A DNA stretch of 23,434 nt from a virus. A model generated the notes under the pieces. The model was not told the DNA's origin. It saw only the letters and a list, made by a program, of their open reading frames with translations, and did not search any database. The stretch lies in the IMG/VR virus record IMGVR_UViG_3300018080_000603, positions 1-23,434 of that record; one strand, written 5' to 3'. The position numbers and the translations under genes are program-made. Numbering within the stretch: position 1 is the first letter of the stretch; each line of letters opens with the position of its first letter. Shown in pieces: positions 1 through 23,434 of this stretch.

Positions 1-582
1 AATGTGGCAGCGCCGAATGGTAATGCCCACCAGGCTGGTGCTGCTGTTAATCCCGTCTTCAGCCAGTGTTTCAAATTCGCTGTCTTCAAGCAGCACGTCA
101 TAAGTGGGACCTACGGTACACTGCCAGCCCTTCGCCACGTTCGCAATCCTGCACCGCTTCAGCTGGAAGTAGGAAGCGGAATTGCCGTCCACGCCGTCAT
201 ATCCTGTGTCCGCACCGTCCAGCACCAGGTCCTGCAGCGTCACCCATGATTCGTCAGAAAGGTCTACAATGTCCTGGGCAGCGCCAGTGGCTGTAATCAC
301 AGGGCGTGCTGCCTGGTCCAAGAATAAACCAGGCCAGGCACCCGTGGCCCAGCCTTCAATGCGCACCCGTTCTGATTCCTGGGTGGCACCTATGGCAGGC
401 AACGTGATTCCGCCAGAATAGGGCGTGCTGCCCTTTATGATTCGGCAGGTATCCCCCACCGTAACAACGTTCAGGAAGGCAGGAATGGAAGCGAACGGGC
501 CTGACGTTCCGCCCTGGTACGTATCAAAAAGACCGTCCCAGCCGTCATTCCCGTTGTCTTTGTCCACATAGTAGGCGGGCAT
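1..582 (-). CDS. Beta-helix-like virion protein, 3' end cut by window edge
   Basis: I translated this frame by hand: it is open from an ATG at 582 to base 1 (194 codons, no stop), so the C-terminus lies outside the window. It starts MPAYYVDKDNGNDGWDGL, then has a SIPAFLNVV..GDTCRIIKG stretch and short repeats such as WVTLQDLVLDG, YFQLKRCRIANV, YDVLLEDSEFE and LVGITIRRCHI. That spacing is typical of right-handed parallel beta-helix (pectate-lyase-like) phage proteins. Such proteins are often tail spikes, fibres or decoration proteins that contact the host surface; that role is inference here. It lies 10 bases after the fibre-like gene, behind an AGGGGCG ribosome site at 588-594. A second ATG at 586 is in another frame and closes after 13 codons, so 582 is the start. 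No catalytic residues can be assigned. Confidence 0.75.
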   Translation of the reverse strand, partial: MPAYYVDKDNGNDGWDGLFDTYQGGTSGPFASIPAFLNVVTVGDTCRIIKGSTPYSGGITLPAIGATQESERVRIEGWATGAWPGLFLDQAARPVITATGAAQDIVDLSDESWVTLQDLVLDGADTGYDGVDGNSASYFQLKRCRIANVAKGWQCTVGPTYDVLLEDSEFETLAEDGINSSTSLVGITIRRCHI

Positions 583-592
583 TCATTCGCCC

Positions 593-2116
593 CTATACTG
601 CGAACTTCAGCAGAACTTTGCCCAGGTCAGCGTTTTTCGCCTGGTCAGCGTACAGCCTGAAGGCCAGGGTGATAATATCGCCAGCAGCAAAGGTTCCGGT
701 GGCAAGATTCGCTGCGGTCAGTGTGGTGGTGGTCCAGCTTGTGCCCTGGATTTTCGCTGGCGTGTTCGCCAGTGTTCCTGCCGCGTCATACACACGCAGT
801 TCGATTCCAGTGGCACCTGGTGTGGCCGACATTCTGCTGTCCCAGCGCACGGCCTGGGTGGCGTCCCAGCCATTCCAGGTGTCAGACAACTTGACTTGCA
901 CCACCAGGTCCAGGTCCTGCGTGCTGGCCTGGCCCGTGGTTCCACGGTAGAAATTCCGGCGCGGTGGCCCGGCTTCGTGTTCCGAAGTCACCAGAATGGA
1001 ATTTGTGCCGCTGCCGGACAGGGCTTCCAGGACGGCACCTGGGAATTCCGGAAGCAGGGCTGGCGTTTTTCCCAGTGTCTGAACCTTGCTGTTTTGAAGG
1101 TTCGTCAGGTGGTAATACTCACTGGCAGCGCCGCCCTGAATGTTCCCCAGGTCATTGTGGTTCGCCACATTGCTTCCGGTGAAATTGTTTGTAAATGGGT
1201 TTTCCACTGACGTGAAGGCGGCTGCGCTTTTCTGAATAATAACCTTCGCAATCAGCAATGACGTGCTGACCAGGCGCGGCGGAAGTGAAGCTGGCGGCTG
1301 TGCCAGTGTCGCCTGGGCCAGGGTGTAGTCCCCTTGCCCATATACCACCACCACGTGGCCGTCATTTTCCATGTATACCCAGTGAACGCCGTACCTGTTC
1401 GCAGTCAGCGCCACCAGGCCAGAAGCAATGTTGTTCCAGTTCGTATTGTCAATCTGCGCCTGGGCCGCCACTTCCACCCAGGCCGCGCCGTTGTAGTACG
1501 CATACGTGAACCGGTCAGCGCCGCTTGAATCGAAGGCAGCCGTGGTGAACCTGTTATGCGCGCAATAAAACGTGCCAGCAGTGATTCCCAGGTTTCTGGT
1601 TCCAGTTCCTGACGTGATAGCGCCCGAAGCCCTGACCACGCCGTACACTTCAAAGTCTTTTTTGCAGGCCACTGTCTGGTATGCCTGGAATTTCTGCCCT
1701 GCATTCAGAATGTGGACCGTGGTTCCCGTTCTGTATGCGCGGCCCACCATTAGCCTGGTATTCGTGTTCACGTCAGCAAACGTGACGGTGGCTGCGAAGA
1801 CAGGTGAACCGGAATTATAATCAATATAAATCCAGTTCAGCGCATTGTCCGTCAGGGAAAGCCCGGTGGCTGCGGCAATGTCGAAGGCCAGCAGCTGCGC
1901 AATTGCATTGTCCGTGGCGCGTATAAATCCCTTTGCCGCCGAAATGTTCACCGTGCCGGAACCGCCGTCAGACACCACGCCGCCGTCCACAATGCCAGCC
2001 CCGTTCATTTTGTCCAGGAAGTCCTGCAGTTCATTGTAGGTGGGCGAACCCAGGACGGGCAGCGGAATTTGCGTGGTTACAATGTCATGCCGCTTTCCGT
2101 CACGAAGGATTTTCAT
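593..2116 (-). CDS. Tail-fibre-like or other virion appendage protein
   Basis: This is a 507-residue protein rich in Thr, Ala, Gly, Asn and Tyr. Around residues 315-340 it has NHNDLGNIQGG followed by SEYYHLTNLQ. The HNDL..QGG..xEYYHLT signature is common in phage tail fibres, receptor-binding proteins and baseplate-associated appendages. The N-terminal 60 residues have a MxKMNGAGIVDGGVVSDGG-like pattern often seen where a fibre attaches to the virion. The last ~100 residues look like a beta-sandwich. Its ATG overlaps the stop of the upstream gene as TAATG, so the two are probably co-translated. The exact place in the virion is not shown by the sequence; a fibre or head-tip appendage are both possible. 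Confidence 0.7.
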   Translation of the reverse strand: MKILRDGKRHDIVTTQIPLPVLGSPTYNELQDFLDKMNGAGIVDGGVVSDGGSGTVNISAAKGFIRATDNAIAQLLAFDIAAATGLSLTDNALNWIYIDYNSGSPVFAATVTFADVNTNTRLMVGRAYRTGTTVHILNAGQKFQAYQTVACKKDFEVYGVVRASGAITSGTGTRNLGITAGTFYCAHNRFTTAAFDSSGADRFTYAYYNGAAWVEVAAQAQIDNTNWNNIASGLVALTANRYGVHWVYMENDGHVVVVYGQGDYTLAQATLAQPPASLPPRLVSTSLLIAKVIIQKSAAAFTSVENPFTNNFTGSNVANHNDLGNIQGGAASEYYHLTNLQNSKVQTLGKTPALLPEFPGAVLEALSGSGTNSILVTSEHEAGPPRRNFYRGTTGQASTQDLDLVVQVKLSDTWNGWDATQAVRWDSRMSATPGATGIELRVYDAAGTLANTPAKIQGTSWTTTTLTAANLATGTFAAGDIITLAFRLYADQAKNADLGKVLLKFAV

Positions 2117-2538: not shown

Positions 2539-2568
2539 GGTTTCCCCCTTGCGCGCCAGGCGCAGGGT

Positions 2569-2925: not shown

Positions 2926-2988
2926 TTTCTTTTCCCCCTATGGGTTTTTTATGATTCGGAAGTATTGCATGTCAGCATGGAGAAAGCA

Positions 2989-3024: not shown

Positions 3025-3053
3025 GTTCACAGTATCACCTGTGCCTTTGTGGC

Positions 3054-4064
3054 TTATGCCACGTCCGCGTACACCACGGCTTCCGGCTTTTTCAGCACGG
3101 GAAGGAAACTGGACGCCACCAGGGCCTGAACGCCCGCAGGGTCCTTTTCAGTCCACGATTTGCTGAACAGTCCGGGCTTGCCGCCTGCTTCCACGTCTTC
3201 TGGCGAACCCTGCTGAATGTCGGCCAGCAGGTTTGTGATTTTGCCGCCCGCTTCCGGGCTGCGCTTGTCACCCTTCGCAATAATAAACACGTGGTCATCC
3301 GGCACGAACTGCGTATACGAACCGCCAGTGGGAACATACCCGTTGTCATATTCCACCACGTTGAGTCCGCACAGCTTGACAATCCGGCCTTCCTCGGCCA
3401 TTTGCCGTCCGTACTGCTGGCGCATCAGTTCACGCACCTTCGCATTGTCCACCAGATAGCCCATGACGGTGGAAGACACGAACATGTCCGTGGGCTGTTC
3501 GCCGCTGTCCTGGGTAATCAGCTTTTTCCAGGCGCGAATGTTTGCAATGGGGTCCGCGTTCGCCGTGTCTGACCATACGGTGCCAGCCGTGGGTTTGTGG
3601 CCTGCGGCAATGCCGTAATCCACCACAAATTGCACGTCTTCCTGGGCCACGGTTAGGGTGCCCTTCAGCATTTCCCAAAATGCGTATTCCCAGGTTTTCT
3701 TCACCTTCATGGTCAGGTCTTCCAGTTCAGCCTTCACGCGCTGTTCAGCCCACTGGCTGGCCCAGTCACCGCCAGGCTGGCGCAGGTGGTACAGCTGCAT
3801 GCCCTTGAGCAAACGCTTTTCGCGGATGCAGGCCATGCGTGCCACCTGGTGGTACACGTCCAGGTTTGTGTCCACGTGCGCGCCGGTGCCGAACTGACGG
3901 AACGGTGCCAGGTTCCGGCTGTTCCGCAATTCGTCCCATTCGGCCACCACGCCTGGGATATTATCCGCAAGCGGGCACATGGAAACGCCCATTAAGGGCA
4001 GGTGGGGAAACTTCGTCACCAGTGCTGTCAGCACTTTTGTTTCAAGCAGCTGCAGAGGTTCCAT
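3054..4064 (-). CDS. Major capsid protein, GpE family
   Basis: This 336-residue protein has the layout of lambda GpE-family major capsid proteins. The N-terminal part has a conserved stretch (APFRQFGTGAHVDTNLDVYH, then RMACIREKRLLKG) where subunits hold an N-terminal arm and E-loop. The middle has the paired-helix and strand pattern (VKKTWEYAFWEMLKGTLTV, then TDMFVSSTVMGYLVD). A C-terminal P-domain-like part has VPDDHVFIIAKGDKR and ends LPVLKKPEAVVYADVA. Length is normal for the family (about 330-350). It sits just after the decoration gene, the usual order in lambda-like heads, and is followed by a terminator hairpin. The AAGGGGG ribosome site at 4074-4080 decides the ATG at 4064. Four of the rare GAG/CTC words of this window fall inside this gene. 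Confidence 0.9.
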   Translation of the reverse strand: MEPLQLLETKVLTALVTKFPHLPLMGVSMCPLADNIPGVVAEWDELRNSRNLAPFRQFGTGAHVDTNLDVYHQVARMACIREKRLLKGMQLYHLRQPGGDWASQWAEQRVKAELEDLTMKVKKTWEYAFWEMLKGTLTVAQEDVQFVVDYGIAAGHKPTAGTVWSDTANADPIANIRAWKKLITQDSGEQPTDMFVSSTVMGYLVDNAKVRELMRQQYGRQMAEEGRIVKLCGLNVVEYDNGYVPTGGSYTQFVPDDHVFIIAKGDKRSPEAGGKITNLLADIQQGSPEDVEAGGKPGLFSKSWTEKDPAGVQALVASSFLPVLKKPEAVVYADVA

Positions 4065-4073
4065 TGTTCATTT

Positions 4074-4080
4074 CCCCCTT
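4074..4080 (-). promoter_or_regulatory. Ribosome-binding site AAGGGGG of the capsid gene
   Basis: AAGGGGG lies 9 bases before the capsid ATG and overlaps the stop codon of the decoration gene. It differs by one base from the consensus AAGGAGG; the changed A removes a GAG. A G at that place can still pair with the anti-Shine-Dalgarno U as a G-U wobble. The same form precedes 2538 and 7988, and close variants precede 2925 and 4459. Confidence 0.8.
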
Positions 4081-4459: not shown

Positions 4460-4487
4460 AATTCAATAACCCCCTGTGTTTTCTTTT

Positions 4488-6032
4488 TTATTCGGTCAGT
4501 TCGCCACGTGTGGCTTTCACGGCCTGGGCCTTGTCCGAATCGGACATGGCCGCCCATTCGGCCTTTGACTTCCCGGTGTAAACCCGGTTCGCCTCGCTGT
4601 CCGCGTCCGCCGCACTCATGTTCACGCCGTCTTCCTGGCCGCTATTTGCGCCTTTCTGTCCGGCGGTTTCTCCGAATTGCACGGAAGGCGTGGTGCCTTC
4701 CACGTACATGCGGAACAGGGCATTGACCGGCAGCGGGTCCTGCCCGTCCGCATAGGACACTTTCCCCATGCCGCCCAGGTTCGGGCTTGCAAGGGCAAGG
4801 GCCACGTCTTTGAACTTGGGAAGAATCTTCCCGGCTTCCACCTGGGCCTTCACCCAGGCTTCGGCTTCGCTGAAGGCGGCCTGCTGGGCGGCCTTCACGC
4901 TGTCCAGGGCCATGCGGCGCACGGTGGCCGGGTCCAGGTTGTCCAGTGCGGCCTGCATGTCCGCGTCACTGAACTGGATTCCGGCAGGAATGACCATGCC
5001 GCTGTCCCCGAACTTGGGCAGCCTGGTGCTGTCCGCATTCTTCACGGGCACCGGGTATCCGAACCCCTTTTGCTTCATTTCCTTTTCGTCTTCTGGTTCG
5101 TCTTCGTCCTGCATTCCGGGCGCTGCGGTTTTCTTGGCTTTGCCCTTCGTGCCCATTTTCGCTGCCTTTTTCTTTGCAGCGGGCGTGGCACAGGTGGCTG
5201 CCTTGTCCGCATTGTCCGCGCTGTCTTCGGCGTCCGCGCCGTCCGTGGCTTCGTCTTCGTCTTCGGTTTCGGCTTCGTCCCCGTCTTCGGCTTCCGTGCT
5301 GTCCGTGCCGTCTTCGGTTTCGCCTGTTTCGGCGTTTTCGTCTTCGGCGTCAGCTTCGCCTTCGCCTTCAGTGCCCTGGGCCTGGGTGCTTTCGGCTTCC
5401 GGGTCCTGGGTTCCGTCTTTTTTCTTTTCGGCTTTCGGGTCCATTTCGTCCCCCTGAAAATTGATTGCCACTCCTGATTCGTCTTCCGCTGCCAGGGCTA
5501 CATAGGCCAGGCCGGATTCAGAAAGGGTGGCTGATATTTCTTCCATTCCTTTGACTTCTGGAATGGGCACAAATGAAACGGCCCGCAGCACATTTGCCAT
5601 GCGTGTTCCGTCCGGGCGTGTCCAGGGCCGTGGTTTGTCGTGCAGTTCCGCACTGCGGAAGCGAAACGCTTTCCGCTTTATCAGGTCCATGACCTGATTT
5701 GACACAAGGCGGAAGTCTGCGAACAGGTCCCTTCCCACAGCATAAACCTTTTCTGCCCAGCCTAATACCGGATTTCCCCGGTTGTCATCTTCGTGGCTGG
5801 ATTTCAAAGGCGGCACATGTTCGCCAGCGGCCTTCAGCATTTCGAAATGCGAAGCAATCTGCTGCAGGTCCTGGTTATTCCATGCGCCCTTGTTTTTGTG
5901 GGTGTAATCACCGGCACGGAAAATCTGAACGCCCTTCAGCAAGGGCTGGTGGCTTGAAGAATTAAGGAAGGAATTTACGGCGTCATGCTGTTTTGCGGCG
6001 GTCTTTTTGTGCATGCTTCCATGTGCCCGCAC
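4488..6032 (-). CDS. Prohead protease with acidic scaffold-like tail (Mu gpI-like)
   Basis: This 514-residue protein has three parts. Residues ~33-190 match the Mu gpI-like prohead protease pattern: IFRAGDYTHKNKGAWNNQDL, then H80 in PPLKSSHEDD, GWAEKVYAVGRDLFADFRLV and S127 in FRFRSAELHD. H80 and S127 are the likely catalytic pair. Residues ~205-290 are an extreme Glu/Asp/Ala/Thr tract and then a Lys-rich stretch. The C-terminal part is helical, with residues such as DMQAALDNLDPATVRRMALD, and is probably the scaffold that is cleaved during maturation. Despite dozens of Glu residues I found only one GAG codon. The GTG at 6032 is tentative; an in-frame ATG at 6014 (MHKKTAAKQHD) is the main alternative. 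Confidence 0.8.
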   Translation of the reverse strand: MRAHGSMHKKTAAKQHDAVNSFLNSSSHQPLLKGVQIFRAGDYTHKNKGAWNNQDLQQIASHFEMLKAAGEHVPPLKSSHEDDNRGNPVLGWAEKVYAVGRDLFADFRLVSNQVMDLIKRKAFRFRSAELHDKPRPWTRPDGTRMANVLRAVSFVPIPEVKGMEEISATLSESGLAYVALAAEDESGVAINFQGDEMDPKAEKKKDGTQDPEAESTQAQGTEGEGEADAEDENAETGETEDGTDSTEAEDGDEAETEDEDEATDGADAEDSADNADKAATCATPAAKKKAAKMGTKGKAKKTAAPGMQDEDEPEDEKEMKQKGFGYPVPVKNADSTRLPKFGDSGMVIPAGIQFSDADMQAALDNLDPATVRRMALDSVKAAQQAAFSEAEAWVKAQVEAGKILPKFKDVALALASPNLGGMGKVSYADGQDPLPVNALFRMYVEGTTPSVQFGETAGQKGANSGQEDGVNMSAADADSEANRVYTGKSKAEWAAMSDSDKAQAVKATRGELTE

Positions 6033-7015: not shown

Positions 7016-7761
7016 TTCGCCAGCACCGCCTTTCCGGGTCCTGCGGCTTGGGCCGCTTCGCTTTTCGGTTCAGCTGCCCTGGGAATGTCCAGGCCGGACA
7101 CTGGGCTGTACTGCCACAGTTCCAGCTGGCTTCCACGGTCCACGGATTCGCTGTGCGTGTCCACATACGGCTGCTGTTCCTTCGGCCTTTCCACCTGCCA
7201 CATGCCAGCGGTTTGTTTGAACAGCCAGCGCCCGTTCAGGCTTGACAGCTTCGGGTCAGAAAATTTCAGGAAGTATTCGTGGAAGCCAGGCTTTTGCGTG
7301 CCGTATGTCATGAAGCCTTTTCCAATGGGAAGCACGAACCCGTCATGTTCCCGTGTGGCACCTGGGTTCCCTTTTTCAATCCGCCCACGGAAGCCAAGCC
7401 AGGCAGCTTCGTGAACTTCCTTCATGGTCCCCTGTGTTGCCTGGCCCTTCAGGAATTTGTCCGCTTTCTTTTGCGTGCCTGGCGTAAACAGCGTCCAGCC
7501 GATTGCCTGACCGTCAGGACGTTCCATGCGCAGGTCCCCGTGAATTCCCACGGGTTCGTTCGCGCCGTTTTCCAGGTTCAGCTTCGCGTCTTTGTCCGTC
7601 CATTCTTCAGGAAGTGCGCGGGCGTGCCATTGATACACGAAAGGAAATGACCGTGAACCTGGCTGGCGCACCAGGTAATCACGCGCTGACTGGAACACCT
7701 GGGCCAGTGCCGGAATGTCTGACAGCTGAATGTATTTCACAGCTGCTGGTTCGTCATTCAC
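7012..7761 (-). CDS. LigD 3'-phosphoesterase-like protein
   Basis: This 249-residue protein begins at GTG 7761, which forms GTGA with the previous stop and has a GGCGGG site six bases upstream. A longer frame opens at GTG 7803 but overlaps the neighbour by 46 bases. The core resembles the 3'-phosphoesterase (PE) domain of bacterial LigD. FPFVYQWHARA (H46) matches the first His block, and IHGDLRMER (H74, D76, R78) matches the HxDxR metal-binding motif. Then come WLGFRGRIEKGNPGATREHD, like the FEGxIPxGxYGAG block, and a GRWLFKQ end like KGRWxLxR. About 20 extra residues separate H46 from H74. PE enzymes remove 3' phosphates or ribonucleotides during end repair. Its presence among head genes is unexpected. 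Enzyme activity is inference. Confidence 0.6.
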   Translation of the reverse strand: MNDEPAAVKYIQLSDIPALAQVFQSARDYLVRQPGSRSFPFVYQWHARALPEEWTDKDAKLNLENGANEPVGIHGDLRMERPDGQAIGWTLFTPGTQKKADKFLKGQATQGTMKEVHEAAWLGFRGRIEKGNPGATREHDGFVLPIGKGFMTYGTQKPGFHEYFLKFSDPKLSSLNGRWLFKQTAGMWQVERPKEQQPYVDTHSESVDRGSQLELWQYSPVSGLDIPRAAEPKSEAAQAAGPGKAVLAK

Positions 7762-7988: not shown

Positions 7989-8006
7989 TGATTGCCCCCT
8001 TGTGAA

Positions 8007-10823
8007 TTACAGCTTGAAGCCTTCCTGCGGTTCTTCCGCAGGCCGTGTTTCCGTTCGCTTCCATTCTTCGCCGCGCACGTAGGGAACCACAATGCTGCGG
8101 CAATTAAAATGATTCGGCGGTACGATTTCCTGCCAGGCCGGGTCCGAAGGCGGCCTGGTGAACCCGTCATATGAACGGCAAAATTCAGTGGTGCGGCTGT
8201 CAATGATTGCCGAATACTGCAGGGCTTCCACCACGTCTTCCACGTCCGGGTCCGAATACAGGGCCATGCGTCCTGAATTGTAGGCTTCCGCCAGGTTCGT
8301 GCGCACTATGGTTTCCAGGCGGCCAGGCGTTCGCAGAATCGTTTTCCCGGTTTGCGGGTCTACCCTGATTTCGCCGGTCATGACGTACTTTGAAAAAACG
8401 TTGTCCACCTGGCCCATGATTGACGGAACGCTGCTGCCACGGGCCAGCCCTGTTTCCAGCACATACTTGACTTCAGCCAGTATTCGTTCCTTTTCCACAC
8501 CAGTGACAGTGAACGCCCGGCGCAGGTATGCACGCAGCGCCCGGCGCAGTGTGGGCCGCTTTGCCGCCAGGTATTCTATGGCGTCCGCCGGGTCCAGGTT
8601 CGGCGCAGCGAACCGCAGGTGTTCAAGGTCCAGCTGGATTTCGAAGTGCAGGCCGTATGGTCCGTCTTCGAATCCGGCCAGCTTTTTGCCCAGGGCCTTT
8701 CCCACTTCAGTGGAACCGTCCTGAATCCCCTTCACATAATCCAGGGTGTACAGGTCTTCCATTGCCTTGCGGAAATTCCCCATTTCTTTGACCGGCAGCT
8801 GCAGCTTGTCAATGTCGCTTGGCTTCCCGCTGTCAGCAATCCTGCGGGCCTGCTTCGTCACGGCACGCTTCACGCCGCGCATGGCGTCTTCCAGCTTGTC
8901 CACCGTAACGTTCGTCAGGGCTTCCCACCAGTTCTGGATTTCCTGGAAGTCTACCTTGCGTTCGGCTTCCGTCTTCGGCCTGGGCAGCTTGCGCACCTTC
9001 AGGTCCGTGGCCGGTGGGGTCATGGCCGTGGCCTTGCCCTGCCCTTCCTGGAACCCTGCGCTGGTGCTTCCCCTGGTCATGGGCGTTCCGCATTTCGGGC
9101 AGTTCACTTCACTGCATGGCTGGCCGGTTTCATGGTCAGCCTTCATACCGCACTTTGGACACACGCACCTTCCACCTGGTCCGGCAGCCAGTAGCCCTTC
9201 CATTCTTCCACGCCCGCCGTTTTCTTCCAGCAGCGCCACGTATGACGCCAGGCTTTCATGCCTGGGCCAGTCCGTGGCAGGGCTATGCTTGGCTTCCATG
9301 AACGGAACCACGCTGCGCAGCATGTAATCACGAATGCTGAAGGCGTCCTGGGTGTCACCCTGGCTGACGCTGCCCGTGTCCTGGTCCCCGCCTTTGTCAG
9401 GCCCTGGTTCGGCCTTCGGCGCTGGTGCTGGTTCGGCCCTTCTCTGCTGTTCGTCTTCCACCACCTGGGGAAAGCCCAGCTTTTCACGAACCCAGGGTGC
9501 CGTGGCGTCCGGCAGCGCGCCCAGGTTTGCGGCACGTTCCAGCAGTTCCGCATATTCGTTTTCCCTATCCGGGCCGTATTCATTGAATTTGAAATACGGG
9601 TACGCTTCCACGTTCCTGAAATTGTAATCAATCAGGCGGCGCACCAGCTGTTCGTTTATGATTTCTTCCACCAGCGCGCCCAGATAATTAAGCACATAAA
9701 TGAACACACGGCCATGTTCACGCCCCAGGGCCTGGGTGCCACGTTCTCCTTCGTCAGTGGTAAGGGTTGGAAGCAGAATGGCCTTCACAATTTCCTTATC
9801 ATAATGCTTCACCGCTGCTTCAAAGCCAGCCTTCCCATTCTTCCCGCTTTCAAGCAGATTCAGCTTCACGCCTTCGGGAACATAAAAACTGCTGGCTGTC
9901 TGTATCTTGTCCAGCATGTCCAGCAAGTAATCTTTGTCAGCCTGTGACAGGCCGCCCTGCTGTTCGCTTCCGTCAGGTTCGGATTCTCCCTGGTCTTCCA
10001 TTTCCGGCAGCGTGGCATACACCGTTGGCATTCCGAATTTTTCCAGAGCAACATTCCAGTATCGGCCCACCATATCTTTGCTGAAATAGGCCCGGTATGC
10101 GGCGCGCAAGTCGCTGGTTCCATACCAGTTCCCATGTTCGCCATTGTAGGAAAACACAATGAACTTTTCAGGTGGCAGCTTTGACTGCTGGCCGGTGGTC
10201 AGGCCCTGCACCAGCTGAATAAGATTCCCGTATTTGTCAGTCACAAAGTCCCAGTCCCTGGGGTCCTTCGTCTTCAGTGTGTCAAGCCCCAGGTATCCGG
10301 CCCACTTCCCGCGCTTGTATATGGTCCAGTTTTCTTCCGTGACGCTGAACCCGTATGGAAGCGCAGACATGACACGGCGCAGGGCTTCAAGAAAATTCCC
10401 ACGCATGTGTTCAATGTTGTATTCCGTGAACGCTGCCAGTTCCGCTGCCCTGGGTTCCACGCTTTCGTCAGGTGGCAGGATTGAATATCCGGTGGACAGG
10501 CGGGCAAGTATTTTCGTTTCAATGGCGTTCTTCACCACTCCGTCACGCCGCATCATGTCACGGTAAACTACCAGGCCACGGCGGCTTACCAAGTCGTCAG
10601 GATTGTACGGAATAAGGCCATTCAACCATTGCTTGCTGATTGAATCCACGGCCAGTTCGCGCAGCAGAATGCCACGTGAAACGGTCATGGCTGGGCGTGC
10701 GCCTGGCGCACCTGGTGATTGATTGACTGCTGGAAGGGTGTTTGCGGATTCCTGGAACTGGTGGTGCCGCTTTACTATGGCCTGTCCCGTATTTCGGCGG
10801 CCAGCGGCCCTGCGTTTACTCAT
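8007..10823 (-). CDS. Portal protein fused to Mu gpF-like head morphogenesis domain
   Basis: This single 938-residue frame joins two proteins that are usually separate. Residues ~45-480 match DUF935-type portal proteins (Mu gp29 family): SRRGLVVYRDMMRRDGVVKN, then RVMSALPYGFSVTEENWTIY, then KYGNLIQLVQG and a long FYVPEGVKLNLLE region. A zinc-ribbon-like Cys cluster follows at ~553-580 (CVCPKCGM, PCSEVNCPKCG). Residues ~700-930 match the Mu gpF / SPP1 gp7 head-morphogenesis family, with RTNLAEAYNSGRMALY near 835-855, DSRTTEFCRSYDG and PPNHFNCRSIVVP near 905-915. The portal ring is the DNA gate of the head; gpF-like proteins help assembly or are ejected. It starts as ATGA on the large terminase stop. 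I see no stop or frameshift between the parts. Confidence 0.88.
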   Translation of the reverse strand: MSKRRAAGRRNTGQAIVKRHHQFQESANTLPAVNQSPGAPGARPAMTVSRGILLRELAVDSISKQWLNGLIPYNPDDLVSRRGLVVYRDMMRRDGVVKNAIETKILARLSTGYSILPPDESVEPRAAELAAFTEYNIEHMRGNFLEALRRVMSALPYGFSVTEENWTIYKRGKWAGYLGLDTLKTKDPRDWDFVTDKYGNLIQLVQGLTTGQQSKLPPEKFIVFSYNGEHGNWYGTSDLRAAYRAYFSKDMVGRYWNVALEKFGMPTVYATLPEMEDQGESEPDGSEQQGGLSQADKDYLLDMLDKIQTASSFYVPEGVKLNLLESGKNGKAGFEAAVKHYDKEIVKAILLPTLTTDEGERGTQALGREHGRVFIYVLNYLGALVEEIINEQLVRRLIDYNFRNVEAYPYFKFNEYGPDRENEYAELLERAANLGALPDATAPWVREKLGFPQVVEDEQQRRAEPAPAPKAEPGPDKGGDQDTGSVSQGDTQDAFSIRDYMLRSVVPFMEAKHSPATDWPRHESLASYVALLEENGGRGRMEGLLAAGPGGRCVCPKCGMKADHETGQPCSEVNCPKCGTPMTRGSTSAGFQEGQGKATAMTPPATDLKVRKLPRPKTEAERKVDFQEIQNWWEALTNVTVDKLEDAMRGVKRAVTKQARRIADSGKPSDIDKLQLPVKEMGNFRKAMEDLYTLDYVKGIQDGSTEVGKALGKKLAGFEDGPYGLHFEIQLDLEHLRFAAPNLDPADAIEYLAAKRPTLRRALRAYLRRAFTVTGVEKERILAEVKYVLETGLARGSSVPSIMGQVDNVFSKYVMTGEIRVDPQTGKTILRTPGRLETIVRTNLAEAYNSGRMALYSDPDVEDVVEALQYSAIIDSRTTEFCRSYDGFTRPPSDPAWQEIVPPNHFNCRSIVVPYVRGEEWKRTETRPAEEPQEGFKL

Positions 10824-12457
10824 GGCAGGCCCCCTGCACTTGTTCTACTTGCCACTATGCCCGCCCGCTTTCTGATTGTTTGTTTTACCCTGCGTCCATA
10901 CCCTTTGTCAAGCCACATGCGCAAGGCCAATTCAGCGTACACTTCAGCCAGCAGGAAGTGGTCAGGCTTTGGGCTAATCCACCGCACCACCGTTTGCCCA
11001 CGCTTATTAAGCCCCTTCACCCTGCGGCCTTTCTTCAGGTGGTCAAAATAGCCTGGTATCACTGGCGCATCCACCGGCAGGACCATTTGCTGCTGTTCCA
11101 GCCTGGTGCTGTACCAGGTGTCAAAGGCCAGGGTGCGGTTGCTGTTCAGCACCAGGTCTTTGTCCCTGGGTTCAATCAGGGCTGTTTTCATGCTGTCCTT
11201 CCACCAGTTCGCCCAAGCCCGCTTCGGGTGTCGTTTGCAAAAAGCCTTTACTGCGCTGGTTTCAGCCTGGCCGTCAATCACGGCCTGGTTCACCCGGAAC
11301 CGCTGCATTAATGGTTCCAGGTGGGAAAGCCTTTCGTCCATTGGAACTGTTCCAATGAATACTGGATACACACGGCCCTTTTCATATTTGTTCACACGGG
11401 TGTGAATGACTGCCCCAGGGTCAGCACCCAGGAACGTGTACCCGTCTTCCAGGGTGGGCGGCATTCTGTATTCCGGGTCCACCAGGGCGGCCAGGATTTC
11501 GTGGCCTATGCTGGCACCCTTCGGGCTGTATGGTTCGCCCAGGCTGCCATTGTAGAATGCCTGCATTTTGAATTCGTCCGTGGCTGCCAGGTACGCTGCC
11601 ACCAATTCTTCAATGCTGGCGGTGGGCGTGAACAGCTTTGAAATGTGCCACCCGGCAGCTGGTGCGCCAGGCTTCGTTGGAACCCAGCGCCCTTCCGCCA
11701 GGCGGTCCAGGGCCTTGCCGCAGCGCCTATTCCGACACCTGACCACATGGGCCTTCATGTCCACCCGGTCCCAGGTCAGTTGCTGCCAGGTTCCACAGTG
11801 TGGGCATGGCACTTCCCATTTCCGCTGGTCAGACAGCAGCCAGTCAGCGTGAATGCCAACGTTTTCGAATTCAGGCGTGGAAATATCCCGCAGCCATTTG
11901 TGCTGGCTGTTCCCGTACCGATCCAGGATTGCCGGTGCCACGTCAGGCGGTATCAGGTTTTTTTCGTCCCTGTATATTATATCCGCGTCCGCACTGGTGA
12001 TTTGCTTTATGTTCTGCGCACCTGAAAAGTAAATGGTACCTGCACCCAGGGTTTTAATGTACGTATTATCCAGGGTTTTATAGTACGTCCCACGCAGCTG
12101 GGCCGTCAGCCAGTCACTGCACTGTATGGCTTTATCAAAGCGGCCTTGCACGAACTGGGCACACTTGCTGAATGTGGGGAAGGCATAAAAAACATTCCAG
12201 CCTTCAGTGGTCATTTTCCACAGGGCTTCATTCAGGGCGTATTCAGACACCCTGCACTGCGCGGATTTCATAACCACCTTCCAGCGGTGGTCCAGGCTGT
12301 AGATTTCGTGCAGGTAATGGAAGCCTTCAAACGTGTTCTGAATACCCACACGGACCAGCGGCCTGCGCAATTCTGACCAGGTGATTAAATCAATTAGGCT
12401 TGTGCCTTCGGTCAGTTCATATTCCGTGGCCTGGGCCAGCACTCCCAGGTCATCCAC
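10820..12457 (-). CDS. terL: Large terminase subunit, GpA family
   Basis: This 545-residue packaging ATPase/nuclease resembles lambda GpA-type large terminases. An adenine-binding/Q-like region (TFEGFHYLHEIYSLD) is followed by a divergent Walker A at ~61-72 (VVMKSAQCRVSE), where the usual GxGKS is not present. Walker B and the catalytic acid are ADADIIYRDE (D164-E165). A four-Cys zinc knuckle follows (C218, C221, C241, C246), typical of GpA. The C-terminal RNase H-like nuclease has acidic residues D346 (FLGADPG), D395 (AVIDGQAE) and D499 (PKPDHF). The start is GTG 12457, preceded by GGTGGGG, overlapping the upstream stop by 8 bases. It powers DNA entry through the portal encoded immediately downstream. 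Confidence 0.9.
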   Translation of the reverse strand: MDDLGVLAQATEYELTEGTSLIDLITWSELRRPLVRVGIQNTFEGFHYLHEIYSLDHRWKVVMKSAQCRVSEYALNEALWKMTTEGWNVFYAFPTFSKCAQFVQGRFDKAIQCSDWLTAQLRGTYYKTLDNTYIKTLGAGTIYFSGAQNIKQITSADADIIYRDEKNLIPPDVAPAILDRYGNSQHKWLRDISTPEFENVGIHADWLLSDQRKWEVPCPHCGTWQQLTWDRVDMKAHVVRCRNRRCGKALDRLAEGRWVPTKPGAPAAGWHISKLFTPTASIEELVAAYLAATDEFKMQAFYNGSLGEPYSPKGASIGHEILAALVDPEYRMPPTLEDGYTFLGADPGAVIHTRVNKYEKGRVYPVFIGTVPMDERLSHLEPLMQRFRVNQAVIDGQAETSAVKAFCKRHPKRAWANWWKDSMKTALIEPRDKDLVLNSNRTLAFDTWYSTRLEQQQMVLPVDAPVIPGYFDHLKKGRRVKGLNKRGQTVVRWISPKPDHFLLAEVYAELALRMWLDKGYGRRVKQTIRKRAGIVASRTSAGGLP

Positions 12458-12821
12458 GCGGCCCCACCATTTCTGCAGGTGGCCTGGGTATTGTGCCCAC
12501 CAGTGAATTTGCGGGCCTCCATAGGTGCAAGCAATATGGGTGGTGGTTTACATAATCCGCTTCAGGCGGGTGCAGCTGCATGCAGCATTCATCAGGTTCA
12601 AAGAATAGATTTTTAATCCAGCACATTTCGTCCCAGGTCGGGCACCGGTCATTCAGGCTGACGCTGACGTGTTCCCAGCCGTGGCCCCTGGTAGCAATCA
12701 CCCGCAGGTGGGCGCTGCCCAGGACCAGGACGAAAGCGCCGTAATTCTGGCCGGGCTTCGTGGCCCACTGACTGCGCCGAATGCGCCCACCTTCCACCTG
12801 GGCTGGGAATGTGGCTTTCAT
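12450..12821 (-). CDS. DUF7694-like hypothetical protein
   Basis: This 123-residue protein carries a conserved pattern I know from many phages and prophages: GWEHVSVSLNDRCPTWDEMC, then WIKNLFFEPDECCMQLHPPE and YVNHHPYCLHLWRP. It matches the family annotated DUF7694 as far as I can tell from memory. The function is unknown. The His/Cys/Asp-rich motif could bind metal. Its ATG overlaps the nuclease-like gene by ATGA and its stop overlaps the terminase start by 8 bases. Confidence 0.65.
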   Translation of the reverse strand: MKATFPAQVEGGRIRRSQWATKPGQNYGAFVLVLGSAHLRVIATRGHGWEHVSVSLNDRCPTWDEMCWIKNLFFEPDECCMQLHPPEADYVNHHPYCLHLWRPANSLVGTIPRPPAEMVGPRG

Positions 12822-13441
12822 GCTTTCACATTTTGTGCTTTCAGTTGTTCCCGGTACCAGCGCCGCTGTTTATTATTTTTCACCGCACTGCACATGCTAC
12901 CGGCTGAAGCATAATGATTCGGGATTGTATTATATATTTCGCGCCAGGTGGCCTTCGGGTGCCTGCGCCTGTAGGATTTAATCACGGCTTCCACGTCAAT
13001 GGCTGGCCCTATGCCTGCCTGGCATGGAACGCCACCGTGCCCCTGGTATCCGGCTTCCTGGGCAGCCTGACATGCGTCCAGGGTGCGCTGCACCCAGGGA
13101 CCTGAAGGCGCGAAACGGGCCGCAGGTTCTAGCACCACGTCCACCTGTGCGCCATGTACCCGCAGTATTCCCAGGCCCAGCTTCCGGCACTGGTCAACGT
13201 TGCGTGGATTCGAATACACGCCCACATATGCGCGTTCAGTCACCAGCTGGCACGATGCAGCCTGGCGTATCACTTTTTTTGTCAGATTCAGCTTCAGTTC
13301 AATACACACCAGTTCATTTCTTTTGTGTGCCACCACGTCCACTGTCCTATAAAACAGCGGCAGTTCCCCGAATACACGGAAGCCCTGGTGCCGAAGCCAC
13401 CGCTTCACTGGCAGGAACATGCGGGATTCCGTCATTTTCAT
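12818..13441 (-). CDS. PD-(D/E)XK nuclease-like protein
   Basis: In this 207-residue protein the N-terminal ~100 residues fit a PD-(D/E)XK nuclease core: helix MFLPVKRWLRHQGFRVF with E26, strand TVDVVAHKR with D35, then LVCIELKLN with E48 and K50 and the following helix TKKVIRQAA. D35, E48 and K50 form the usual catalytic pattern. The C-terminal part (from ~150) has IDVEAVIKSYRRRHPKATWR and a following Trp/Lys/Arg-rich end that may be an HTH-type DNA-binding helix set. It could be a restriction-like or repair endonuclease, or act on packaging ends given its place just before the terminase. Substrate and target sequence are not visible. Confidence 0.65.
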   Translation of the reverse strand: MKMTESRMFLPVKRWLRHQGFRVFGELPLFYRTVDVVAHKRNELVCIELKLNLTKKVIRQAASCQLVTERAYVGVYSNPRNVDQCRKLGLGILRVHGAQVDVVLEPAARFAPSGPWVQRTLDACQAAQEAGYQGHGGVPCQAGIGPAIDVEAVIKSYRRRHPKATWREIYNTIPNHYASAGSMCSAVKNNKQRRWYREQLKAQNVKA

Positions 13442-14098: not shown

Positions 14099-14318
14099 AC
14101 TTCCACCGCCTTTCGTAAATCTGGTCCCACTGGGCCTGGACGGCGCAGCGCCAGCCCCATTCGCCCAGTTCGTCCTTCACGTGCGCGGATATAATGGCAT
14201 TTTCGATTCCCCGCACCATGAAGGAATACACCATGCGGTCAAGGTCAAACACCACGCCGGTTTCAGGGTGGCATAGGTCCTGGCAAATGTCCGTGGGGTC
14301 TTCGTGCTGCATTCCCAT
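14088..14318 (-). CDS. Hypothetical small protein
   Basis: This 76-residue protein starts at ATG 14318, which overlaps the HAD gene stop as TAATG and follows an AGGGGA site six bases upstream (14325-14330). A longer frame from 14420 would overlap the HAD gene by 103 bases with a Gly/Ala/Pro shadow-like product and is not accepted. The protein has HEDPTDICQDLCHPE, then YSFMVRGIENAIISAHVKDE and a Trp-rich basic end. No family is recognised. Confidence 0.6.
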   Translation of the reverse strand: MGMQHEDPTDICQDLCHPETGVVFDLDRMVYSFMVRGIENAIISAHVKDELGEWGWRCAVQAQWDQIYERRWKYGH

Positions 14319-15004: not shown

Positions 15005-15672
15005 TATGTCACCGCCTTTGACTTTTTCAGCACAGCATCCCGCAGCTGCTGCCTGGTCAGCTTCCCTTTTTCAAGTGCGGACAGCAGCGCCTTTTTCACG
15101 TGTTCCACGCCAGGGCTTGCCTGTTCCCTGTCCACGCCGAACCGTACCAGCAGGCTTTCGTCCCGGCCTTCCAGCAGGGCGGTTTCGGTTTTAATGGCGT
15201 TCAATAGGTCATTCACCGTCACCTTTTCTACCTTGCCAGCCAGTATGGCGTCCACCAGGGTTTCCCGAACCAGGGCCAGCTGGTCCAGGCTGGCTTTCCT
15301 GGTCAGCACGTACCGTTCGCCTATCACTTCCAGGAACTGCTTTGTGACACCTGCTATATATTCCTTTCGCAGCTGCGCCCAGTTTTCCTTTGAAGCGCGC
15401 CGGTGGACCACTGACACGTTACATTCCACTTTCTTGCCGTCACGGTCCTTCAGGTGGTCCAGCAGTTCTTCGTGCGTCAGATACCGGCTGCTGGTGATAT
15501 ATAGGCGCTTCGCCATTTCCCACTGAATGTGCTTCGGCCCAGTGCTTCCTTCGCCAGGCTTGCCCTTCGCAGTCTTCCGGGTGCCCGTTTTTGCTGCACT
15601 TCCTTTTGACTTGCTGGGCCGTTTTCTGGCTGGTGCTGTCTTTTTCTTGGCTGCCTGTTTTTTACTCGCCAT
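15004..15672 (-). CDS. Candidate small terminase subunit
   Basis: This 222-residue protein starts at ATG 15672, four bases after AAAGGTGG. The first ~45 residues are Lys/Ala/Arg-rich (SKKQAAKKKTAPARKRPSK), like a histone tail. Then comes a helix-turn-helix-like region (WEMAKRLYITSSRYLTHEEL to VVHRRASKENWAQLRKEYI) and a long helical part (LALVRETLVDAILAGKVEKV, LNAIKTETALLEGRDES). HTH followed by KENWxxLR and oligomerising helices is the usual plan of phage small terminases that bind pac/cos DNA. Seven genes separate it from the large subunit, which is unusual, so another DNA-binding role remains possible. Confidence 0.55.
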   Translation of the reverse strand: MASKKQAAKKKTAPARKRPSKSKGSAAKTGTRKTAKGKPGEGSTGPKHIQWEMAKRLYITSSRYLTHEELLDHLKDRDGKKVECNVSVVHRRASKENWAQLRKEYIAGVTKQFLEVIGERYVLTRKASLDQLALVRETLVDAILAGKVEKVTVNDLLNAIKTETALLEGRDESLLVRFGVDREQASPGVEHVKKALLSALEKGKLTRQQLRDAVLKKSKAVT

Positions 15673-15684: not shown

Positions 15685-15691
15685 CGAAGCC

Positions 15692-16383: not shown

Positions 16384-16649
16384 GGTTCCACCGCCTTATA
16401 TTTCTTTTCGAATATGTCCGCCGCGCACGGGTACAGTTCACCTTCAGTTCCTTGCACCAAGTAGTCACCCGCATTTCCGTGGCTGACACCTTCCAGGGTG
16501 TGGACCGTGAACGGGTCCTGCATTTTCACAGCACGCACCTTCACCGGCCTGGGCATGAATTCCTGTCCGCCCACTGCCGTGGCTGAAATGAAGTCCCGCT
16601 TGCTGCCCTTGCATATGGTCCCCTTGCCGCCTTGAATAACGCTTTTCAT
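16380..16649 (-). CDS. PGDYG-like small protein
   Basis: This 89-residue protein has a C-terminal part following the PGDYG-family pattern: HTLEGVSHGNAGDYLVQG, then GELYPCAADIFEKKYKAV. That family is widespread in phages and prophages and has no firm function. The ATG at 16649 overlaps the upstream stop as ATGA. An ATG six codons earlier (16667) would overlap by 22 bases. It is coupled by ATGA to the lipoprotein gene downstream. Confidence 0.6.
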   Translation of the reverse strand: MKSVIQGGKGTICKGSKRDFISATAVGGQEFMPRPVKVRAVKMQDPFTVHTLEGVSHGNAGDYLVQGTEGELYPCAADIFEKKYKAVEP

Positions 16650-17569: not shown

Positions 17570-17964
17570 TTGTCCACCGCCTGCGTGGGATATGCCCAGC
17601 CAGGAATATGGAACACGAACGCCACAGGCACAGGTTCGTCCAGTCCCTTGATTCGGACCACCGCATGGTTTGTGGCTGTGTCAATGTGGGCCGGGCGTTC
17701 CACTTCGCCTTCCAGGGCCACGGTGCCCTTTGACTGGCAGTACACCACACGCTGCCCAGGTGCCACCATTCGGTTAAATGATTCAGCCAGCACCTGGTCA
17801 TATGTCATGCTGTGAATCCTGGTCAGCTGCTGCACCGCGCCCACCACCCATTCCAGTTCCATTTTCCGCACCATGCCGTGGGCGCTTCCAGGTGCGTTCT
17901 TCAGGGCCGCTTCGGATTCCAGAAGCCTGGCCGCCAGTAGTTCCAGCAGTTCCTGTTTCGTCAT
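17566..17964 (-). CDS. Hypothetical protein sharing its N-terminus with the next gene
   Basis: In this 132-residue protein, residues 1-47 (MTKQELLELLAARLLESEAA onward to VQQL) match the same region of the downstream gene at about 17 of 47 positions without gaps, including RL, E, AL, P.SA, R..EL and VQQL. The C-terminal half is beta-rich (GQRVVYCQSKGTVALEGEVE, TATNHAVVRIKG, PVAFVFHIPGWA) and looks like a small barrel. The function is unknown. It is coupled by ATGA at both ends. Confidence 0.6.
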   Translation of the reverse strand: MTKQELLELLAARLLESEAALKNAPGSAHGMVRKMELEWVVGAVQQLTRIHSMTYDQVLAESFNRMVAPGQRVVYCQSKGTVALEGEVERPAHIDTATNHAVVRIKGLDEPVPVAFVFHIPGWAYPTQAVDK

Positions 17965-18632: not shown

Positions 18633-18634
18633 GC

Positions 18635-20247: not shown

Positions 20248-20266
20248 GCCCGCGCTTCCCGCCTTT

Positions 20267-20854
20267 TCAGTGTAGTTTATCTGCAGCGCCTGGACCAGCC
20301 CAGGCAGGGTTCCCTTTCTTCAGTGTGTCCAGGTCCCCGCTGGCTTCAATTTCCTTGAACAGCACAGCGGCAATTGCCAGGGCGTCCGCTTCGTCTTCCT
20401 GGTGTGGCAATAGCTTGTCCCACTTCCAGAACCGCTGGACGGCTTCCATTATCATGGCCTTGTTTGCCTTGCGTGCCGTGTGGGCCGTTCGCACACCAGC
20501 CTTTTTGCAAAGGCGCTTCAGGCCCAGCACCTTGAACCGCTGGGTTTGCTGAATTTCATTCACGGCCTGGCGGGCGTTCCCTTCATAGGCCATATATACA
20601 ATGTTCCTGAATCCTGCAATCATGTCAGTGGTCCGCATGCCACGCAGGACCGGCTGCTGTTCCATGCAGCAGAATGCTGACGGGTACCGCTGAATGACTG
20701 ACAGCACGCCGCCGTAAAAGGAAAGCAGATTGATTCCACGGCTGGCTTTGTTGTCACGTTCCCAGGCTCCCACGGCCACCACTTTCTGGTGTTCATCCAC
20801 CACGGCAAAGCCCGTGCGGGTGCTGGATACGTCCCAGGCCGTAATCAGGTTCAC
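20267..20854 (-). CDS. RuvC-like Holliday junction resolvase
   Basis: This 195-residue protein has an RNase H-fold in which the RuvC acidic residues can be followed: D8 in LITAWDVSSTRTGFAVVD, E65 in AFCCMEQQP and the pair D154/D157 in HQEDEADALAIA. The layout and length match RuvC-type resolvases (about 170-190). In phages such enzymes cut branched DNA before packaging. The start is GTG 20854, forming GTGA with the upstream stop. The C-terminus (WAGPGAADKLH) is short and poorly conserved. A different RNase H-like nuclease role cannot be excluded. Confidence 0.8.
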   Translation of the reverse strand: MNLITAWDVSSTRTGFAVVDEHQKVVAVGAWERDNKASRGINLLSFYGGVLSVIQRYPSAFCCMEQQPVLRGMRTTDMIAGFRNIVYMAYEGNARQAVNEIQQTQRFKVLGLKRLCKKAGVRTAHTARKANKAMIMEAVQRFWKWDKLLPHQEDEADALAIAAVLFKEIEASGDLDTLKKGNPAWAGPGAADKLH

Positions 20855-21246: not shown

Positions 21247-21608
21247 GTGGCTTTCCCTTTCTGTTCCTGGGAACAGCTGTCACAATACAGCGGAATGTCA
21301 GGCGGCGCGCTGACCACCTTTTTTCCAGGCGTCCTGGGCTTGGCTTTTTTCAGGACGCGGGCCTTGTCAAGGCGCGAAAACAGGCGCTTGCACCTATCAC
21401 ACAAAAACACGGTGTGCCAGTTCAGGCCGCCGATTCCTTCAGACAGTGAAAGGGAATAGTACGGCGTGGCGGTCCAGTCCTGTATTTTCAGCTGCGTGCC
21501 CTTTTTCTTGCCCATGTCTGGTCCGTTATACACTGCACTTTCCCCCTGTGTAAATAGCTGAATGACGCACCGGCAGTTCACGTGGACGGGCGGCCAGCGT
21601 TCGGTCAT
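21243..21608 (-). CDS. Small Cys-pair protein with MuF-like front
   Basis: This 121-residue protein begins TERWPPVHVNCRCVIQLF, a motif like the C-terminal PPxHxNCRC end of Mu gpF-type proteins. It is followed by an unrelated part with two CxxC pairs, VFLCDRCKRLFSR and LYCDSCSQEQKG, spaced like a zinc finger. An AGGTGACAGGG stretch precedes the ATG at 21608. An internal ATG (21515, MGKKKGTQLKIQDW) is possible and would remove the MuF-like part. The function is unknown. Confidence 0.55.
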   Translation of the reverse strand: MTERWPPVHVNCRCVIQLFTQGESAVYNGPDMGKKKGTQLKIQDWTATPYYSLSLSEGIGGLNWHTVFLCDRCKRLFSRLDKARVLKKAKPRTPGKKVVSAPPDIPLYCDSCSQEQKGKAT

Positions 21609-22309: not shown

Positions 22310-23025
22310 GGATGCACCGGAAGCGGCACAGGGTACTTGTCAATGGCAATTTGCAGCAGGGTGTCAGGCAAGCCATGCAGCTGCTTTTCCACGAACACTG
22401 CCAGCAGCGCGTGTGGATGCACGGCGGTTTCAATTTCATGCTTCAGAATCATTCCCACCCGTCTTCCCAGCACGCGCAGTTCCCAACAATCGTTCAGGGT
22501 GTCTTCCGTCCATGACACCAGCGGGCCACCCAGCTTGAATTCCACCCAGGCCCTGGTCCGGTCATGCAGCTTCAGCTTCCACCAGTTCGCCAGGTACCAG
22601 GCCCTGGTGTCCGGCCTGCCCTGGGCGCGGCCAGCGCCGCGCCAATCAGCCAGCATTTCCCGCCTGGCTTCGCTGGACATGGGAAGAACCTTCAGGCCGC
22701 CTTCGTCTTCCGGCAGGCACCACCACTGCCAGTGGTGGTCATTCCGTTTCTGGTGCAGCAGCCAGGCGAAGTCAAAGCCCTGGTGCCCCGTGTCCGTGGG
22801 CTTATAGTACCCCGTGCTGTCCCGCTTGGCTTTCGCATTGCGCAGCGCCGCGCCCTGGCCGTGGAAAAAATCCACGTATGGGAACCATTCGCTGGGCAGG
22901 AACTTTGACAGGTCATGCACCAGGCCGCGCCAGGGAATGCCCAGCTTGCAGCATTCCACGAACACGAACCACCGGTGGCGCATGACATAGGACAAATACC
23001 TGGCATGGGCAGCTGGGCTATTCAT
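22306..23025 (-). CDS. DUF5662-like protein
   Basis: This 239-residue protein has an N-terminal pattern typical of the DUF5662 family: YLSYVMRHRWFVFVECCKLG, then GLVHDLSKFLPSEWFPYVDF. Conserved His and Asp (HDLSKF) and a second HHWQWW block near residue 97 could form a metal site like that of HD-type hydrolases, although this is inference. The C-terminal ~80 residues (from about VEFKLG) are not part of the family as I know it. The function is unknown. ATGA overlaps link it to both neighbours. Confidence 0.75.
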   Translation of the reverse strand: MNSPAAHARYLSYVMRHRWFVFVECCKLGIPWRGLVHDLSKFLPSEWFPYVDFFHGQGAALRNAKAKRDSTGYYKPTDTGHQGFDFAWLLHQKRNDHHWQWWCLPEDEGGLKVLPMSSEARREMLADWRGAGRAQGRPDTRAWYLANWWKLKLHDRTRAWVEFKLGGPLVSWTEDTLNDCWELRVLGRRVGMILKHEIETAVHPHALLAVFVEKQLHGLPDTLLQIAIDKYPVPLPVHP

Positions 23026-23291
23026 GGTTTTTTCGGCCTTTCATATTTATTGCACATGTCCAGTGGTCCCACTGATTCGTCCAGCGTCACTGGCAGTGGC
23101 AGGTCTTCACGTCCGGTTCGTTCTTCACGTTCGTGGTGCTTCCTCATTTTTTCAATGTTCTGGTCCTGCATCAGGTTGCACCACAGTTCGCCTTCGTATC
23201 CTTGTTCCATGTGTTCGCATGTCCAGCAGCATTCAAGGTTCAGCGTGCGGAATTTCACCTGCTTGTAATGCTTGCGTGTGGGCGCGTTCAT
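23022..23291 (-). CDS. Small Cys-cluster protein
   Basis: This 89-residue protein has the pattern ECCWTCEHMEQG, GELWCNLM and a late GPLDMCNKYERP. It matches the widespread small phage and bacterial family CWxCKH...C...V.P.xxCxxFE, likely a four-Cys metal-binding knuckle. No enzymatic motif. It starts as ATGA on the upstream stop and ends as ATGA on the DUF5662 gene. Confidence 0.65.
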   Translation of the reverse strand: MNAPTRKHYKQVKFRTLNLECCWTCEHMEQGYEGELWCNLMQDQNIEKMRKHHEREERTGREDLPLPVTLDESVGPLDMCNKYERPKKP

Positions 23292-23434
23292 GTTTTCACC
23301 CCACGCGCCTTGAATGAAATTTCTTTGCCGTCTTCAGAAATTTTAATGCTTTCTTTGTCCACGTTTTCGCCTAGCCTGAATGACTGATTTTCAATGTCAA
23401 TTTCCACCAGCCCCCACAGCATGCGTGGCGTTCC
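23288..23434 (-). CDS. Partial hypothetical protein at the right edge
   Basis: A frame open from the window edge to a TGA at 23288 gives 48 residues ending GKEISFKARGVKT. An ATG at 23422 (MLWGLVEIDIENQSFRLGEN) could be the start, or the gene may begin outside the window. The product looks beta-rich and is not recognised. It is linked by ATGA to the next gene. Confidence 0.5.
   Translation of the reverse strand, partial: GTPRMLWGLVEIDIENQSFRLGENVDKESIKISEDGKEISFKARGVKT

Follow-up and report, generated by a model that had tools for sequence, protein, structure and literature searches.

Which process can erase a three-base word from a stretch of viral DNA, and on which kind of molecule does it act? 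This question is raised by IMG/VR virus record IMGVR_UViG_3300018080_000603, a linear record of 23,434 bases that we analyzed whole (the window) and in which the trinucleotide GAG and its reverse complement CTC are nearly absent. The window has a G+C content of 57% and carries its main genes on the minus strand. Its genes for a terminase, a portal, a capsid protein, a decoration protein and a head maturation protease mark it as a fragment of a tailed phage.

Near-erasure of GAG/CTC

Exact counting on the plus strand gave 6 GAG (positions 2980, 3363, 3807, 4055, 10046 and 14809) and 23 CTC, 29 sites in total. A first-pass annotation of this DNA, made by eye, had put the numbers at about 5 and about 22; its five GAG positions were right, and the one at 14809 had been missed. 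A per-strand maximal-order Markov model predicts 554 sites, a strand-symmetrised Markov model 565, and base composition alone ~822 (four NGAG expectations summed). The figure of 554 is conservative, because losing GAG also makes the dinucleotides GA and AG scarcer. The deficit amounts to ~95%, or about -4.3 on a log2 scale, and none of the 32 trinucleotide pairs scores lower than GAG/CTC, with its z score of about -22. The near-erasure claimed in the first pass, for which a Markov count of trinucleotides had been named as the check, is thus confirmed. The leftover sites are spread roughly evenly (per-kb mean, 1.2; variance, 1.8). Because the loss is even, the genes may have been under the pressure for a long time or may stem from a pool of genes that was exposed to it as well.

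Loss within codons, across codon boundaries and in non-coding DNA

Within codons, glutamate is encoded by GAA 466 times and by GAG 9 times, as the first pass had noticed, and leucine by CTC twice versus 498 times by CTG. Codon preference alone is ruled out as the cause, because the boundary phases and the spacers are depleted too. Across codon boundaries, GAG/CTC occurred 16 times versus 262 expected from a synonymous-codon shuffle that keeps proteins and codon usage fixed, a 16-fold deficit, and the 909 bases of non-coding DNA contained 1 site versus ~32 expected, which bears out the earlier statement that the loss is not just codon choice. On the coding strand, both orientations were hit in both boundary phases: GAG was found 7 times versus 51.6 expected and 6 times versus 101.6 (together 13/153), CTC 3 times versus 51.0 and not once versus 58.2 (together 3/109). 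The shuffle used 36 open reading frames (ORFs) chosen by visual inspection of a list, with doubtful and overlapping ones among them, so that bases shared by overlapping ORFs enter these counts twice; two ORFs, 1-582 (open) and 18200-18415, were omitted.

Where a codon itself cannot change, the phage alters its neighbor. Serine after an internal methionine or tryptophan is encoded by TCN in 12 of 13 cases, with AGC or AGT making up 165 of the 333 serine codons overall, and a leucine codon precedes AGN a single time, where it is TTA, whereas leucine is chiefly encoded by CTG. The loss runs through the choice of synonyms, by both transitions and transversions. In the boundary class xxG-AG (the hyphen marks the codon boundary), transition-type mutation would give xxA-AG, yet CAG gains most (205 versus 99 expected) and AAG less (71 versus 53). 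Two further boundary classes also gain mainly by transversion (GTG, 126 versus 62; CGC, 143 versus 115 expected). Transition-type mutation is disfavored as the cause by these transversions.

The depleted word

All 16 N-GAG-N contexts are depleted, with 0 to 6 occurrences each versus 37 to 68 expected from base composition. Since every one-base flank is affected, in both orientations on the coding strand, the depleted word is the bare triplet, and a single longer word containing GAG, for which the first pass had suggested looking, was rejected. Systems such as BREX (bacteriophage exclusion) read words of 6 to 7 bp and are disfavored by this result, the depletion not being limited to one longer word as a BREX or a Type I or III system would have it. 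Across codon boundaries, AAG/CTT is undepleted (observed-to-expected ratio [O/E], 0.98), and the word is therefore GAG and not RAG; CCA/TGG is undepleted as well (1.27).

Because the loss reaches the boundary phases, the spacers and the ribosome-binding sites (see below) and strikes both orientations, selection on duplex DNA is, as far as the sequence can tell, the best reading of the GAG/CTC loss. The suggestion that selection acts on DNA, with both strands affected, has therefore held up. The causes then listed were restriction, BREX, phosphorothioation and a phage nuclease; the longer BREX-like word is disfavored, and the others have not been narrowed to one.

Further words, of which the first pass made no mention, are depleted in the same shuffle, counted with their reverse complements: CGAC (13/164 expected), GATC (2/34), GATG (24/114), CCAA (41/143), CAAC (34/116), CTAG (2/17) and TTAG (7/43). 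CGAC, GATG, CCAA and CAAC are non-palindromic and depleted in both orientations. Such depleted non-palindromic four-base words are unusual, whereas some other records have also lost GATC or CTAG. There is no GATC in three of the records compared below, L002 (15.6 kb), L013 (Moorella phage MTATph1, 80000-129000; 49.0 kb) and L026 (20.5 kb), a case of conventional palindrome avoidance. On the coding strand, CCCC (10/70 expected) is rarer than GGGG (70/112), an asymmetry unlike the GAG depletion.

Ribosome-binding sites without GAG

The canonical Shine-Dalgarno sequence AGGAGG contains GAG, and Shine-Dalgarno sites are therefore touched by its loss. Indeed, AGGAGG does not occur on either strand of the window. 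Instead, AGGCGG or AGGGGG precedes 12 of the 36 called starts at a distance of no more than 20 nt, versus 0.65 expected at random places, and 11 of these motifs lie at the usual spacing (Table 1). Taken singly, AGGCGG was present 6 times versus 0.47 expected from random coding-strand stretches, AGGGGG 6 times versus 0.18, and AGGTGG not once versus 0.42. The sixth AGGCGG lies 13 bases ahead of a doubtful ORF, 17961-18362, and was omitted from the table. The five well-placed AGGCGG sites share AGGCGGTG, which reaches further towards the anti-Shine-Dalgarno sequence, and the AGGGGG sites can form a G-U pair with it, on general pairing rules rather than from the host 16S rRNA. An altered anti-Shine-Dalgarno sequence in the host is disfavored as the origin of AGGCGG, because AGGGGG is used just as often. 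The presumed Shine-Dalgarno sites of the window are thus rewritten by the loss of GAG, which is a new observation.

As a control, we took 47 other records, in which an automatic caller found 803 genes, and counted the same words near the gene starts: AGGAGG was present 86 times, AGGCGG 9 times, AGGGGG 20 times and AGGTGG 17 times; the same caller found 25 genes in the window, with 0, 2, 3 and 0 occurrences, respectively. Whole-record counts not linked to starts give no contrast, since AAGGCGG exceeds AAGGAGG in 27 of the 47 other records and the reverse holds in 13; the contrast in AGGAGG replacement is that of the start-linked counts.

Comparison with other records and a second purged triplet

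The 47 other records are 46 from viruses or phages and one bacterial contig (L014). Some were picked for their homology to the window and others by hand, and together they are no random sample; two of them, L031 and L032, are similar and perhaps represent one phage. Their GAG O/E ranged from 0.70 to 1.53, and none of them shares the near-erasure of GAG. No near DNA match to the window was found among phage records. Scans of viral contigs gave 11 loci with the capsid protein, 19 with the DUF5662 protein and 5 with the DUF7694 protein, at 24 to 62% identity in single proteins, and no relatives with the terminase, radical SAM, portal, DUF5131 or RuvC proteins. With identities of this order the comparison covers distant relatives only, and none of the 35 loci showed GAG depletion (O/E, 0.70 to 1.13). 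The best phage match of the DUF5662 protein, in Moorella phage MTATph1 (57% identity), has a GAG O/E of 0.96. A genome scan gave 0 loci with the terminase and a single Poribacteria contig with DUF5662.

One other record has lost a triplet, and a different one. In IMGVR_UViG_3300047160_005690 (L035; 46,561 bp; pieces L047-L049), which was retrieved via its DUF7694 gene, TTA/TAA occurs once versus 232 times expected over the whole 46.6 kb. In 12 of its ORFs, there are 0 versus 87 expected across codon boundaries, and TTA is absent as a codon, as is TAA as a stop. When trinucleotides with an expectation of at least 50 were ranked, with L001 and L034, which are pieces of the window, dropped, only the window and L035 among 48 records had one with an O/E below 0.1. 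TAA is low (0.19 to 0.73) in L041, L042, L043, L045 and L050, as it often is in high-G+C phages, although none of these is near zero; part of the TTA/TAA loss in L035 may therefore be ordinary. L035 carries a C5 cytosine methyltransferase (L047:3882-5402) and encodes a replication initiation protein. The DUF7694 protein is the sole window protein with a match in L035 (52% identity; E limit, 0.01), but it was rejected as a marker of purging, since seven other carriers (L036-L039 and L050-L052) have no trinucleotide below 0.37. We tentatively put forward, as a possibility, that single-trinucleotide purging is a recurrent and undescribed trait of tailed phages: each lineage would erase one non-palindromic triplet throughout its genome, the enzyme class involved would read 3-bp words that vary with the host, and self would be marked by absence of the word and not by modification.

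Which agent might read GAG?

The agent is quite possibly an enzyme of the infected cell, most likely a defense nuclease or nickase of the host, although our confidence in this falls short of even. It would recognize GAG as a 3-bp word on the DNA duplex and damage the DNA with a small chance per site; every GAG lost would bring the phage a slight gain in survival, and the lineage would drift to near-absence of the word but not to exact absence, with translation-initiation sites bearing part of the cost. The 29 leftover sites point to a small cost per site, and at mutation-selection-drift balance an O/E of 0.05 would need a scaled coefficient of only ~3. A host defense that nicks the DNA or cuts it weakly would suit this. 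Candidates would be a restriction system that reads an unusually short word and a system of the phosphorothioate type, and the depletion of CGAC, GATC, GATG, CCAA and CAAC suggests that the phage meets several such systems. The nearest precedents for 3-bp words are, among viruses, the chlorovirus enzymes Nt.CviPII (CCD) and Nt.CviQXI (R/AG) (PMC7019647; this and the other papers named here are cited from excerpts) and, on the host side, the Ssp phosphorothioate word CCA (PMC9646914). With AAG and CCA undepleted, neither the R/AG nickase nor Ssp is a match.

Several points weigh against such a host enzyme. A literature search turned up no restriction system of a host whose word is GAG alone, and in a survey palindromic sites were avoided but those of Type I or III systems were not systematically so (PMC6286503, excerpts). 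Protection of a 3-bp word would be costly for the host, and a fully efficient nuclease would still cut the 29 remaining sites. The further depleted words suggest either that no single agent is at work or that the phage meets several short-word agents. Finally, the boundary class xxC-TC gains mainly by a transition (TTC, 84 versus 26 expected), so that mutation type alone is indecisive and a mutational contribution is possible.

We nevertheless favor a host nuclease or nickase over a phage-borne nickase and over escape from CRISPR-Cas. A GAG-reading short-word nuclease or nickase carried by the phage or its virion would shred host DNA and spare the phage by absence of GAG instead of methylation. 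This is unlikely, although the even loss along the window is what a constant self-imposed pressure would give. A possible nuclease gene lies at 12818-13441, two genes upstream of that for the terminase large subunit; read by eye, its product has the pattern VDVV...IELK, which we take to be PD-(D/E)XK-like. Its structure model is too poor to use (mean predicted local distance difference test score [pLDDT], 42), and its only match in a phage record, phage D6E (E, 0.005), has normal GAG (0.94). Chloroviruses do encode 3-bp nickases, one with a word (R/AG) that covers GAG, and the restriction enzymes packaged in their virions are believed to break down the DNA of the host (PMC7019647), but these enzymes are paired with methyltransferases, and in the window, an incomplete fragment, no GAG-specific nuclease was found. 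Rather less probable still is that GAG is the protospacer-adjacent motif (PAM) of a host CRISPR-Cas system and was purged to escape it. PAMs are short and non-palindromic, a low cost per site would tolerate leftovers, GAG is among the functional PAMs of Escherichia coli type I-E (PMC4246573), and, as expected of a PAM, a word of 2 to 4 nt is depleted here on both strands regardless of context. But depletion of the PAM GAA in phages of CRISPR-positive Streptococcus is slight (median log2, -0.32 and -0.38; PMC4246573) compared with the value of about -4.3 in the window, AAG, which serves E. coli type I-E as its chief PAM, is undepleted, and CGAC, GATG, CCAA and CAAC would demand further PAMs.

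That the loss reflects an ordinary bias in composition or mutation which phage and host have in common, or mutation that depends on context, such as deamination, is improbable. Several other words are skewed too, and the changes from GAG to GAA codons and from xxC-TC to TTC are transitions; against this, the 16-fold deficit persists under shuffles that preserve codon usage, transversions are the main replacement in three of the four boundary classes, and nothing similar was seen for GAG in the 47 other records. We give very little credence to the idea that CTC is the initiation triplet of a DnaG-type primase and that its erasure suppresses priming on phage DNA. We know of no primase that uses CTC, and the phage would have no clear advantage. 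A word read on single strands should also leave a strand asymmetry, which is at most weak in the boundary counts given above. Replication initiation proteins of the kind encoded by L035 usually depend on the helicase and primase of the host, which speaks against this idea too. Bacterial primases do start at trinucleotides with two leading pyrimidines (CTG, CTA, TTA and CCC; PMC5204125), which CTC fits, and TTA, purged in L035, is a triplet used by Firmicute primases, but half of all trinucleotide pairs have the pyrimidine-pyrimidine form, and CTC is not mentioned in the excerpts of PMC5204125. Scarcely credible, finally, is avoidance at the RNA level, for example of an endoribonuclease cutting mRNA at GAG or CUC. 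Trinucleotide-reading RNA toxins exist, MazF with its word ACA being one, but such an agent would remove one orientation only, whereas GAG and CTC are both lost from the strand of the main genes, and non-coding DNA is hit too.

Relation to known systems

As in known restriction-site avoidance by phages, where duplex-reading nucleases select on DNA words and O/E falls below 1 (PMC6286503, PMC12707154), the loss in the window is one of DNA words. Known cases, however, concern mainly 4- to 6-bp Type II palindromes, whereas GAG is a 3-bp non-palindrome whose loss altered ribosome-binding sites; only GATC and CTAG of the depleted words named above are of the palindromic kind. The chlorovirus nickases resemble what we propose in having 3-bp non-palindromic words, one covering GAG, but are virus encoded and accompanied by methyltransferases; no such enzyme was found in the window fragment, and an R/AG enzyme would also have affected AAG. 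The Ssp defense (SspABCD-SspE) is a host system acting on a 3-bp non-palindromic word with a nicking effector, but its word is CCA, which is not depleted here, and its effector senses modified host DNA; the excerpts of PMC9646914 do not mention avoidance of CCA by phages. PAM depletion in phages likewise removes a short non-palindromic word from both strands, but the reported effect is tens of percent (PMC4246573) and not 95%. In the open-licence literature, outside of which most subscription papers lie, we found no report, in the excerpts covered, of near-erasure of a bare non-palindromic triplet that altered ribosome-binding sites.

Avoidance of restriction sites is well known; purging of a triplet implies that a potent agent reads a word of 3 bp in the DNA. 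It also offers a cheap computational screen, in which every purged word indicates what an enzyme yet to be found should recognize, and L035 suggests that a screen of public viral contigs would yield more cases.

Gene content of the window

The genes and presumed ribosome-binding sites discussed above are listed in Table 1. The first-pass annotation had taken the product of 4488-6032 for an acidic scaffold; the acidic tract is there, but the protein matches a head maturation protease family rather than a scaffold.

Table 1. Coordinates of genes and presumed ribosome-binding sites in the window
Feature	Position	Strand	Remarks
Major capsid protein	3054..4064	-	phrog_29, 4e-51
Head maturation protease with acidic tract	4488..6032	-	phrog_976, 2e-29
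Portal-head morphogenesis fusion	8007..10823	-	phrog_113, 9e-85; phrog_220, 1e-26
Terminase large subunit	10820..12457	-	phrog_675, 3e-76
Possible PD-(D/E)XK nuclease-like protein	12818..13441	-	phrog_12193 (unknown function), 1e-6; sub-threshold Hjc, E 0.12
RuvC-like resolvase	20267..20854	-	phrog_159, 8e-9
AGGCGG (AGGCGGTGG), presumed ribosome-binding site, C replacing central A	17577..17582	-	7 nt before ATG of 16646-17569
AGGCGG (AGGCGGTGG), presumed ribosome-binding site of 15994-16383	16391..16396	-	
AGGCGG (AGGCGGTGA), presumed ribosome-binding site of 14318-15004	15012..15017	-	
AGGCGG (AGGCGGTGG), presumed ribosome-binding site of 13883-14098	14106..14111	-	
AGGCGG (AGGCGGTGC), presumed ribosome-binding site of 6815-7015	7026..7031	-	
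AGGGGG, presumed ribosome-binding site of 8007-10823	10830..10835	-	
AGGGGG, presumed ribosome-binding site of 7758-7988	7995..8000	-	
AGGGGG, presumed ribosome-binding site of 4079-4459	4470..4475	-	
AGGGGG, presumed ribosome-binding site of 3054-4064	4074..4079	-	
AGGGGG, presumed ribosome-binding site of 2569-2925	2934..2939	-	
AGGGGG, presumed ribosome-binding site of 2116-2538	2544..2549	-	

Other genes encode a polynucleotide kinase-like HAD protein, a DUF7694 protein, a radical SAM protein, a DUF5131 protein and a DUF5662 protein, and no tRNA genes were found in the window. Among eight window proteins queried against PADLOC, only the DUF5131 protein (21605-22309) gave a match, to two candidate-system models. 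Together with the phrog_9298 protein (18937-19926), also encoded on the minus strand, it makes two radical SAM-like proteins in one small phage fragment.

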